A stretch of 61,134 bases of DNA from Armatimonadia bacterium (GTDB taxonomy: Bacteria > Armatimonadota > Zipacnadia > Zipacnadales > JABUFB01): NCBI GenBank assembly GCA_039679385.1, contig JBDKVB010000153.1, positions 1 through 61,134 on the forward strand, written 5' to 3'. Of this stretch, positions 8,183 through 40,332 are shown piece by piece (the stretch's first letter is position 1; every line of letters starts with the position of its first letter). The position numbers and the translations under genes were made by a program. The notes under the pieces were generated by a model that was not told the origin of the DNA, did not search any database, and was given only the letters and a program-made list of their open reading frames with translations.

Positions 8183-10474
8183 GTGCAATCGATGACTCTG
8201 ACGGCCTTCGAGAATGGAGCGATTGTCTTCACTCTCGTGGCCGCAGCAATCGGCCTGATCTACGCACTCGTCCTCCGCACCCGGATCACAGCGCTCGATC
8301 AGGGTACGGAGAAGATGAAACAGATCGCCAGCCAGATTCAGGAAGGCGCCATGGCCTACCTCGGGCGCCAGTTCCGCACCATCGCTCTGCTGGTCGTCCT
8401 TCTGTTTGTCGCTCTGATCCTCAGCGCCGGGGGCAATTGGAACCTCGGTATCGCCCGCGGCGTTGCCTTCTTGCTCGGGTGTCTCGCCTCTGGCGTCACC
8501 GGCTACATGGGCATGACCCTCGCGGTCCGCGGCAATGTGCGGTGCGCGAATGCCGCCCGCACGAGCCTCAAGGACGCCTTCGCCGTCGCCTTCAACTCTG
8601 GCGCCGTCGCCGGCATGTTCACCGTCACCATGGGCCTCGTCGGTGCAACCCTTATCTTCTGGATCTACAAGGAACACGCCACTGACGTCTTGCTCGGCTT
8701 TGGCTTCGGCGGCTGTCTGCTCGCCCTCTTCATGCGGGTCGGCGGCGGCATCTACACCAAGGCTGCGGACGTAGGCGCCGACCTGGTCGGCAAGGTTGAG
8801 GCCGGCATCCCCGAAGACGACCCGCGCAACGCAGCCGTTATCGCTGACAACGTCGGCGACAACGTCGGTGACTGCGCAGGGATGGCTGCCGACATCTTCG
8901 AATCCTACGAGATCACGCTGGTCGCTTCGATGATCCTAGCTCTAGCTCACGTCGAGGGCGGTTCGCCCGAAGGCATGCGCAAGGCAACCGTGTGGATCAT
9001 CTTCCCGATCATCGTCCGCGCGATCGGCGTCTTGACCTCGATGTTCGGTATCGGCCTCGCCAGGATGAAGAGCGACGACGAACACCCGATCAAGGCCATC
9101 ACCCGCGGCTTTGTCTCCTCTGCCCTTCTCTCCGCAGTCGCCTTCTGGGCAGTGGCTCGCTTCTATGTCGGCGCCGTGGGCAACGACCCGGACAACTGGG
9201 CCAAGCTCTTCCTCGCCACCTTCTCCGGTCTCGTCCTCGCGGTCGCGATGTACAAGCTGACCGAGTACTACACTTCCACTGAGTTCTCCCCGGTCAAGTC
9301 CATCGCCCGATCCACCCAGACCGGTAGCGCAACGACGATCCTCACCGGTTTCTCCGAGGGTCTCGAAAGCGCCGTCTACGCCCTGTTCGTGATCTGCGGC
9401 TGTCTCGTCTTCTCGATGCTCGTGTTCGGTAGCGAGGCGACCGCCGTGGAGATCCTCTACGGTGTCTCCCTGTGCGGCCTCGGCATGCTGACCACAACCG
9501 GTGTCATCATCTCCATGGACACCTTCGGGCCTGTTGCCGACAACGCCCAGGGCATCTCCGAGATGGCCGGCCTCGAAGACAACACCCAGAACGTCGAACT
9601 GCTGGATTCTGTGGGCAACACCACCAAGGCAGCGACCAAGGGTATCGCTATCGCCTCGGCCGTTATCGCCGCGATCTCGCTCTTCGGCTCCTACCTGTCC
9701 AAGGTTGCCGCTGCAAGCGCCGGCACCGGTGGCGCCGCGGAGAGCATCAGTGGGGCCGCTCTCTCCCAGTACCACATCAACATCGACAAGCCGGCAGTCT
9801 TCATCGGCGCCCTAATCGGTGGCGCGATGCCCTTCCTGTTCAGCTCCATGACCATCCGTGCCGTCAGCCGCGCGGCCTTCAAGATCATCAACGAGGTGCG
9901 TCGGCAGTTCCGTGAGATCCCTGGTCTCATGGAGGGCAAGGAAGGCGTCATGCCCGAGTCCGGCAAGGTCGTCGACATCTGCACCGCCGCCGCAATCCGC
10001 GAGCTCGTCGCTCCCGGTCTGCTGGCTGTCCTTTCCCCGGTCATCATCGGCGCATGGTTCGGCTGGGAGGGCCTCGGCGGCTTCCTCGGCGGTATCATCA
10101 TCGTCGGGCAGCTCATGGCGGTTCTCATGTGCAACGCAGGTGGAGCCTGGGACAACGCCAAGAAGTCCATCGAAGATGGCGCCTACGGCGGCAAGGGCTC
10201 TGACGCCCACAAGGCCGCAGTCGTTGGCGACACCGTCGGTGACCCCTTCAAGGACACTGCCGGCCCCGCGCTGAACCCGCTCATCAAGGTCATGAACACC
10301 GTGGGTCTGCTCATCGCCCCGGCCATCGTTACCTATGCGGACAGCCTGGCACTCAAGCTCATCGGCGTCGTCCTCGCCGCCATCATCGCGGTTGCCCTCA
10401 TCGTGGCCAAGCGCGAGACCAAGGACGTCCAGGAAGCCGAAGAGGCTCTGGAGCACGCTGGCGGGAAGGGCTAA
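8183..10474 (+). CDS. hppA: Membrane-bound proton-translocating pyrophosphatase
   Basis: A 763-residue polytopic H+-PPase (about 16 membrane segments) that couples pyrophosphate hydrolysis to ion pumping. Signatures are D-V-G-A-D-L-V-G-K followed by [19 protein letters not shown], and the C-terminal [11 protein letters not shown]. The motif [10 protein letters not shown] carries Lys at the position that distinguishes K+-independent proton pumps from K+-dependent enzymes (family knowledge). The GTG at 8183 lies 6 nt after GGGAGGAG; an ATG three codons later is less well spaced. A strong terminator follows. Confidence 0.96.
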
Positions 10475-36566: not shown

Positions 36567-36580
36567 TAACCTTTAGGTTA
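36567..36580. promoter_or_regulatory. Palindrome A upstream of the -35 box
   Basis: TAACCT-TT-AGGTTA, a perfect 6-bp inverted repeat with a TT centre at 36573.5, located just upstream of the -35 box. A candidate operator or activator site. Confidence 0.55.
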
Positions 36581-36586
36581 TCTTAA

Positions 36587-36615
36587 TTGACAATCCGGCT
36601 ACCACTGCTTAGCAT
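36587..36615 (+). promoter_or_regulatory. Promoter of the response regulator gene
   Basis: Perfect -35 TTGACA (36587-36592), 17-bp spacer and -10 TAGCAT (36610-36615), in a locally AT-rich patch. The leader would be about 290 nt. Confidence 0.65.
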
Positions 36616-36912: not shown

Positions 36913-37611
36913 GTGAGTAGAGCGAGGGTTCTGGTCGTCGGAAGCAGCACCGACACACAGGAAGTGATGGAGCGCAAACTGCAGGAAGCAGGCTTCGACG
37001 TGCTGGTCTGTCCGGCAGGCAGCGACCTGCAGGAGGCCTTGCACGAGCATAAGCCTGATCTGGTGGTGCTGGACCTCGAACTGGCGGACCGACACGGTCT
37101 CGACGTCTGCCGTGAGGTTGCCGCCGCCCGTGGACGTGGAGTGATTGCCCTCGCGCCCGAAGGGGACAGCGTCAGCGGCATCGTGAGCCTCGAACTGGGC
37201 GCAGATGACTTCATCTGCAAGCCCGTGGACATGCGCGAGCTCAGTGCCCGCGCGAAGGCGGTGCTACGCCGGCTGCAGAGCGGAGGAGTCGAGGCCGAAC
37301 CCGGATCGCTCCGCGTCGGGGGGCTGGAAGTCGACGAGCGGACCCATCTTGTGCGCGTGAACGGTCGCTCGCTATCCCTCGGACCGATCGACTGCATGAT
37401 CCTCTCGACCCTGATGCGCCGCGTAGGCCACGTCTGCACTCGCGAGGAGCTGTGCGAGGCCGCCTGGGGCCAGGCACATCAGCCCGCCCACAAGCTCACC
37501 ATGCACATCAACAACCTGCGCAACAAGATTGAGCCCGATCCGCGTCGACCGCGCTACCTCCTCACGGTCCGCGGCGTCGGCTACAAAATATCCGACCGAC
37601 CGGAAACCTAG
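36913..37611 (+). CDS. Atypical OmpR-family response regulator
   Basis: A 232-residue regulator: receiver domain (about 4-118) and winged-helix DNA-binding domain (about 130-228, ending R-Y-L-L-T-V-R-G-V-G-Y-K). The receiver keeps Asp54 (V-L-D-L-E) and Lys103 (C-K-P-V-D), but the acidic pocket that binds Mg2+ reads V-V-G10-S-S instead of V-D-D-x, and the switch Thr/Ser is Ala81. Phosphorylation is therefore unlikely to control it as usual. Start is GTG 36913 after a GGGGG stretch. No kinase is adjacent. It may autoregulate through the palindromes at its promoter. Confidence 0.9.
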   Translation: MSRARVLVVGSSTDTQEVMERKLQEAGFDVLVCPAGSDLQEALHEHKPDLVVLDLELADRHGLDVCREVAAARGRGVIALAPEGDSVSGIVSLELGADDFICKPVDMRELSARAKAVLRRLQSGGVEAEPGSLRVGGLEVDERTHLVRVNGRSLSLGPIDCMILSTLMRRVGHVCTREELCEAAWGQAHQPAHKLTMHINNLRNKIEPDPRRPRYLLTVRGVGYKISDRPET

Positions 37612-39942: not shown

Positions 39943-40332
39943 TCAGTCGCCGCTCTCAAGCACGCGCTTGACGACCTCGCCGACGGTGTCGATGAAGCCG
40001 GCGCGCTTCTCAACGAACACCCCATCGAACTCGATGATCCGCATGAGGTCGCTCGGGCTGTCGGCGAAGCCGCTGATCACAACGACCTTCATGGCTTCCC
40101 ACAGAGGGTTGTTCTTGATCGCTTTGAGAACGTGCCAGCCGTCGATATCCGGCATGCTGATGTCGACGATCACCACGTCGTAGAGCCGGTCGGCGCAGGT
40201 CCGTTCGCAGATCTTGCGGAGAGCCGACCGCCCACTGTTGGCGGTGTCGGACTCAATGCCCATCGTCTGCAGGCGCACCGCCACAGTCTCCACAATGCCG
40301 GGGTCATCGTCGGCGATGAGAACTCGGGGCAT
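39943..40332 (-). CDS. Single-domain response regulator (CheY-like)
   Basis: A 129-residue receiver with no output domain. All phosphorylation residues are present: A-D8-D9-D10, phospho-acceptor Asp57 in V-I-V-D-I-S, Ser in V-V-I-S-G-F and Lys in V-E-K-R-A. ATG 40332 follows GAGGAG by 6 nt. Such proteins relay phosphate or bind partner proteins; no kinase or chemotaxis gene is near. Its stop is 5 bp from the convergent nucleoside hydrolase stop. Confidence 0.9.
   Translation of the reverse strand: MPRVLIADDDPGIVETVAVRLQTMGIESDTANSGRSALRKICERTCADRLYDVVIVDISMPDIDGWHVLKAIKNNPLWEAMKVVVISGFADSPSDLMRIIEFDGVFVEKRAGFIDTVGEVVKRVLESGD

Follow-up and report, generated by a model that had tools for sequence, protein, structure and literature searches.

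Response regulators are called atypical, and their receivers pseudo-receivers, when at least one of the conserved DD, D, T and K positions is missing (PMC12632262). The direct analysis described there puts pseudo-receivers at about 6% of bacterial receivers, and an earlier inference put them at 13%. GlnR of actinomycetes lacks most of the receiver pocket, and its unphosphorylated Asp50 is reported to be needed for the homodimer (PMC4977719; PMC12632262). In VirS of Rhodococcus equi, Asp13 is replaced by Arg, and Asp57 is kept yet described as dispensable (PMC4190465). ChxR of Chlamydia and HP1043 of Helicobacter, OmpR-type like the regulator analyzed here, are also described as functional without phosphorylation (PMC12632262).

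The regulator gene lies at 36913‒37611 (+ strand) of the window, by which we mean the whole stretch of DNA that was analyzed, a contig of 61,134 nt. It encodes 232 residues from a GTG start, and a ribosome-binding-like AGGGGG is located just upstream of the start (36899‒36904, +). By the published definition, the residues of its pocket place the protein among the atypical response regulators with a pseudo-receiver, with DD and T replaced and D and K kept. It is not an aspartate-less receiver (ALR), since D54 is present, nor a canonical phosphorylatable response regulator, since it has G10-S11 and A81.

Like GlnR, the protein is an orphan of the OmpR type that has lost the acidic pair and kept the Asp. 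However, GlnR is described as keeping Asp50 and Thr79 of six pocket residues, whereas in the regulator the Thr is lost and Asp54, Lys103 and the aromatic residue remain. GlnR is not the nearest relative, with its entry 8hih in 38th place by fold and far under MtrA by sequence. VirS is likewise an orphan OmpR/PhoB regulator with a lost Mg2+ ligand and a kept Asp; as reported, a single acidic residue is changed in VirS and most critical residues are kept, whereas both acids and the Thr are absent here. VirS is thus a direct precedent for the loss of a Mg2+ ligand together with a dispensable Asp, and it shows that retention of the Asp does not by itself imply a function. The receivers of ChxR and HP1043 are degenerate in other ways than that of the regulator. 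Among proteins of solved structure, MtrA and RegX3 are the closest in sequence. MtrA has the same two-domain fold and is the best sequence match (2gwr, E 7.8e-43; 38% identity in the fold comparison), but the acidic pair and the switch Thr are present in MtrA. Identity with MtrA itself was rejected, with 164.4 bits for NCBIfam NF040689 against an equivalog cut-off of 300. Regulators of this atypical kind are already known, and the regulator and its paralogue add one more, apparently lineage-restricted, case.

Domain organization and receiver pocket

Response_reg (PF00072, 63.1 bits) followed by Trans_reg_C (PF00486, 67.7 bits), each over its cut-off, and a predicted fold that matches OmpR-type chains assign the protein to the OmpR/PhoB family. 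The pseudo-receiver domain covers residues 6‒114 (36928‒37254, +; C153:36928-37254 in the genome search) and the winged-helix DNA-binding domain residues 152‒225 (37366‒37587, +). Both domains are seen in the AlphaFold2 model (mean pLDDT 83.8, pTM 0.59), for which the 33-row alignment consisted of the window protein and 32 of 80 contig loci. A second structural comparison matched mainly the receiver; since active and inactive chains were listed there at similar Z, the state of the receiver cannot be read from it.

The original prediction was that the regulator keeps Asp54 and Lys103, has G-S-S in place of the acidic residues and carries Ala at the switch Thr, and alignments to MtrA, RegX3, KdpE and 49 other loci bear out all three points. 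The Mg2+-binding acidic pair is replaced by G10-S11, followed by S12 (codons 36940‒36948, +), and the switch Thr/Ser by Ala81 (codon 37153‒37155, +). The phospho-acceptor position Asp54 (codon 37072‒37074, +) and the catalytic Lys103 (codon 37219‒37221, +) are kept, as are Pro104 and the switch aromatic Phe100. Neither a frameshift nor a wrong start explains why the acids are missing, since the alignment runs through the site without gaps and the start is preceded by the ribosome-binding-like site.

These losses are not random noise, being rare among related proteins. We counted 140 distinct OmpR-type rows, after dropping matches with E > 1e-30 or with at least 70 gap columns. Of these, 137 have DD or ED as the pair and 137 have T or S as the switch residue; the Asp and the Lys are each found in 139. 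All three exceptions come from this genome, namely the regulator, L002, which is its paralogue, and L010, which is fully degenerate, and the five catalytic positions are intact in all 137 other rows (with DD or ED as the pair). Since 81 of the 137 rows came from contig loci that were fetched with patterns including LELGADDF, K-3 is biased toward Phe in this set; in the 56 rows from genome searches alone, K-3 is Tyr in every one, and it is Phe in the regulator and the paralogue. DD/ED and T/S are intact in all of these 56 rows, and K+2 is Phe in 53.

The changes extend to further pocket positions. K+2 is Val105 (codon 37225‒37227, +), where 131 of the 137 relatives have Phe. At T+1 the regulator has Pro82 (A/G in 133 of 137) and at D+4 it has Ala58 (P in 136 of 137). 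T+2 is Glu83, and Asp in the paralogue, against K/R in 131 of the 137 relatives. As a class, pseudo-receivers are reported to depart from receivers at these same extra positions, K+2, T+2, T+1 and D+4, and A, I, L or V at K+2 is described as favoring active CheY conformations (PMC12632262).

A paralogue with the same losses

A second copy of the gene, L002, lies in the same genome (G000, C39:9686-10369) and is 48% identical to the regulator. As a check, the original prediction proposed a search for the same substitutions in close homologues; in L002 the same positions are lost, but to other residues, namely Ser-Ala for the acidic pair and Val for the switch Thr, and it retains D54, F100 and K103. 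Its K+2 is Leu and its D+4 is the usual Pro. In a tree of 70 of the 140 rows, the two proteins form a clade with support of 99/99 on branches of 0.64 and 1.11, and the tree tool marked L002 as a long branch whose position is uncertain.

Four residues, G89, G157, T196 and M197, are common to both paralogues and occur in none of the 137 others. The recognition-helix stretches of the pair agree at 10 of 15 positions, as compared with a mean of 5.3 and maxima of 9 and 8 against the 137 others. Since the paralogues are sisters with common residues and similar recognition helices, the loss of the pocket is old and inherited rather than a sequencing slip. The pocket state has persisted across a long divergence (48% identity) with both reading frames open. 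Elsewhere in the winged-helix domain, the near-invariant Glu at residue 160 is Asp in the regulator and Gly in L002.

For the dimer face we rely on the PhoB numbering and contact roles (D101, E96, R122, I/V92, L95 and A114), which we take to apply here. Both paralogues have identical residues at these six positions, and the positions of PhoB R115 and K117 are kept or R/K-exchanged in both. At the position of PhoB Lys/Arg91, both have Gly (G89 here), a residue that all 137 others lack there. Glu111, the partner of PhoB residue 91, is kept in the regulator as E109 and is Leu in L002. Most of the usual α4-β5-α5 dimer face is thus present, but one salt bridge is lost, and dimerization may differ from the usual mode.

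Phosphorylation and mode of action

We consider it probable that the regulator acts as a phosphorylation-independent DNA-binding dimer controlled mainly by its level, very probably without normal Mg2+-dependent phosphotransfer, and that L002 is alike. Phosphorylation independence is the best reading since the Mg2+ ligands, the switch Thr and the K+2 Phe are lost in both paralogues, and the searches made revealed neither a kinase near either of them nor an orthologue that carries the acidic pair. The regulator would dimerize and bind DNA as made. D54 and K103 would serve a structural charge contact that stabilizes the active or dimeric form, comparable to the role of Asp50 in GlnR, and V105 would tilt the receiver to active-like states. 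The output would then be set by the amount of protein, through the gene's own promoter, and L002 would work in the same way. Against this reading stand the weakened contact in the dimer face, the change at residue 160, the shortness of the motifs common to the two upstream regions and the presence of palindromes in place of the usual direct repeats. Having lost the Thr and the metal site yet retained the Asp and the Lys, among OmpR-type rows that are otherwise nearly all canonical, the pair offers a clean natural test of the role of the retained residues.

The original prediction, that the protein is probably independent of phosphorylation, accordingly stands as the best reading, but residual, inefficient phosphorylation at Asp54 is possible. 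In a stronger form of this idea, the receiver would be weak but genuine, with D54 slowly phosphorylated by a kinase elsewhere in the genome, the metal held otherwise or absent, and activity modulated by this modification. The retention of D54, K103 and F100 in both paralogues fits such a receiver, and the genome has 42 HATPase_c matches, in which kinases and other ATPases are pooled. Substitutions at DD or T are also reported not always to abolish phosphorylation fully; on the other hand, the Y-T coupling as described requires Thr or Ser (PMC12632262). We regard a weak but genuine receiver as unlikely, given the joint loss of the two acidic ligands and the switch Thr in two proteins and the acidic T+2 of both.

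The original prediction also noted that no kinase lies nearby, and this is correct when judged by HATPase_c. The single HATPase_c match of the 61-kb contig is at 2248‒2583, more than 34 kb from the regulator, and none was found on the 12.8-kb contig of the paralogue, in a search from which kinases without a recognizable HATPase_c would escape. By itself, the absence of a kinase is a weak argument, because most orphan response regulators are described as typical ones (PMC12632262).

Returning to the phosphorylation-independent dimer, a more elaborate version is conceivable, in which the two paralogues form one phosphorylation-free control unit, homo- and heterodimers of differing strength act on the same sites, and the relative expression of the two switches carbohydrate-use genes. 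Dimers of both kinds on the same sites can be envisaged because the recognition helix is similar and the dimer face is changed (Gly at 91 in both, Glu111 lost in one). As a whole, we think this arrangement quite improbable.

Gene neighborhood

A GH4 enzyme and a sulfatase are encoded upstream of the regulator and a URO-D-like protein and a nucleoside hydrolase downstream; a BNR-repeat protein is also among the neighbors. The genes upstream of L002 encode a rhamnosidase, an epimerase-type protein and a third product whose beta-helix match falls under the family cut-off. A stand-alone receiver, which the original prediction does not mention, is present at 39943‒40365 on the opposite (-) strand, 2.3 kb downstream of the regulator. 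Its DD, D and Ser are intact; its Lys position is unaligned to the profile, and a K-R is visible by eye.

The carbohydrate-related genes at both paralogues raise the question of control by a small molecule, such as a sugar breakdown product of the neighboring genes, or by a cysteine pair, either of which could gate dimerization. Precedents are described in JadR1 and RedZ and in RitR and HP1021, respectively (PMC12632262). Cys181 is common to both paralogues, at a position that is Leu in 127 of the 137 relatives, and Cys102 adjoins K103 in the regulator. However, nothing positive points to the ligand that the original prediction also suggested, and the carbohydrate-related neighbors may just reflect a genome with many such genes. 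Cys181 sits in the DNA-binding domain, whereas RitR uses the linker and HP1021 the DD+19 position, and only cysteines 66 and 181 are common to both paralogues. Gating by a ligand or by redox is therefore an unlikely explanation in our judgment.

Promoter region and transcript

The original prediction further suggested control by abundance. This is plausible, given that the gene has a promoter-like site of its own, that two palindromes accompany this site and that the gene is flanked by hairpins. The promoter-like site, TTGACA-17-TAGCAT, is at 36587‒36615 (+) and was the one site found by a consensus scan of 36300‒37900, against a mean of 0.3 in shuffled sequences. The palindromes noticed in the original prediction are both present around it: TAACCTTTAGGTTA (36567‒36580) lies immediately upstream of the -35-like hexamer, and TTAGCATTTGCTAA (36609‒36622) overlaps the -10-like hexamer. 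Autoregulation would probably proceed through these palindromes.

When the 553-nt intergenic region was simulated 5000 times with a Markov model, 0.8% of the runs gave two or more perfect 6-2-6 palindromes, a figure for a shape that was chosen after it had been seen. With any gap of 0‒10 allowed, the three palindromes observed in the intergenic region are unremarkable (mean 1.6, P 0.24). TTAGCA-N2-TGCTAA has one site in the genome (36609‒36622), which is the sole match at up to one mismatch, and TAACCT-N2-AGGTTA has one exact site (36567‒36580) and two one-mismatch sites. Control patterns, the palindromes read backwards, also have one genome site per strand. A palindrome-defined regulon was thus not seen, and exact copies occur only at the gene's own promoter. 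The palindromes may belong to another regulator, since OmpR-type proteins usually bind direct repeats.

Upstream of the paralogue, at 9269‒9282 of its locus (L165), is the perfect 6-2-6 palindrome ACTTGTTGACAAGT, which contains a TTGACA hexamer; the arrangement resembles that at 36567‒36622 but the letters differ. Motifs common to the two upstream regions did not exceed 9-mers (E 1.1).

A perfect 12-bp hairpin with no T run after it lies between the sulfatase gene and the regulator (36392‒36424, +), and a strong terminator-like hairpin follows the regulator (37677‒37714, +; fold z-score -5.5 for 37670‒37720, terminator-like match 37689‒37706). Since hairpins flank it on both sides, the gene looks like a stand-alone, monocistronic unit. 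If transcription begins at the promoter-like site, the leader would be about 290 nt long. A structured leader was rejected, with the 290 nt before the start folding no better than shuffled sequences (z 0.83), and an Rfam search for one gave nothing at the gathering score.

Distribution and other receivers of the genome

Orthologues that carry the acidic pair in the same gene context, which the original prediction had named as contrary evidence, were found neither in the order (40 further genomes) nor in the phylum (290 further genomes), nor among the GTDB matches listed. In the 40 genomes of the order, for which every candidate was scored, the best non-self match is a canonical protein of 42% identity. 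No orthologue was found in the 290 genomes of the phylum, with up to nine candidates scored per genome, and no match scored there was better than the canonical protein. The scan of GTDB contigs (at least 590 stretches, 80 loci kept) gave a best identity of 40% among the matches listed, from which very near records may be absent. Since the candidates were limited in the 290 genomes and the GTDB scan covers the matches listed, it is possible that an orthologue was missed.

The gene neighborhood was also compared through the downstream URO-D-like gene, whose best matches in three other genomes of the family have 52‒56% identity. No receiver was found near them in stretches of 16.0, 10.3 and 4.4 kb; because the 4.4-kb contig ends on the 5' side of the gene, just two of the three stretches inform on the place of the regulator. 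Judged by these comparisons, the pair seems to be lineage-restricted.

That the regulator has lost its kinase and is drifting without a present function would agree with its orphan status, the lack of an orthologue in the search of 290 other genomes of the phylum, the long branches and changes of residues conserved at 95% or more beyond the pocket (P58A and E160D in the regulator; L7V, P48A, E109L, R113K and E160G in L002), but is very unlikely given two full-length reading frames with ribosome-binding-like sites, a loss pattern common to both paralogues, the likeness of their recognition helices and the retention in both of near-invariant residues, among them D98, D99, P104, R120, G223 and Y224.

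Within the genome, six of the 47 receivers that are readable at all five positions break the five-residue rule. This count sets four partial receivers aside, includes L183, which was added separately because the PF00072 matches in the genome do not contain it, and leaves out the second receiver of the window (39943‒40365). The six are the regulator, L002, L146, L183, L179 and L180. L146 is a receiver within a larger ORF (residues 245‒361). L183 is the same gene as L010 (G000:C26, about 11056‒11616); it is of the OmpR type, has His at the Asp position and is without the acidic pair, the Thr and the Lys, and its winged-helix-like C-terminal part still aligns. L179, L180 and L181 (G000:C141, C138 and C148), which we take to be CpaE-like, have a degenerate receiver in which His occupies the Asp position, and a P-loop-like motif comes after it. 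The motif is KGGVGKT in L179 and L180 and RDGVGKS in L181, which is one of the partial receivers in the count.
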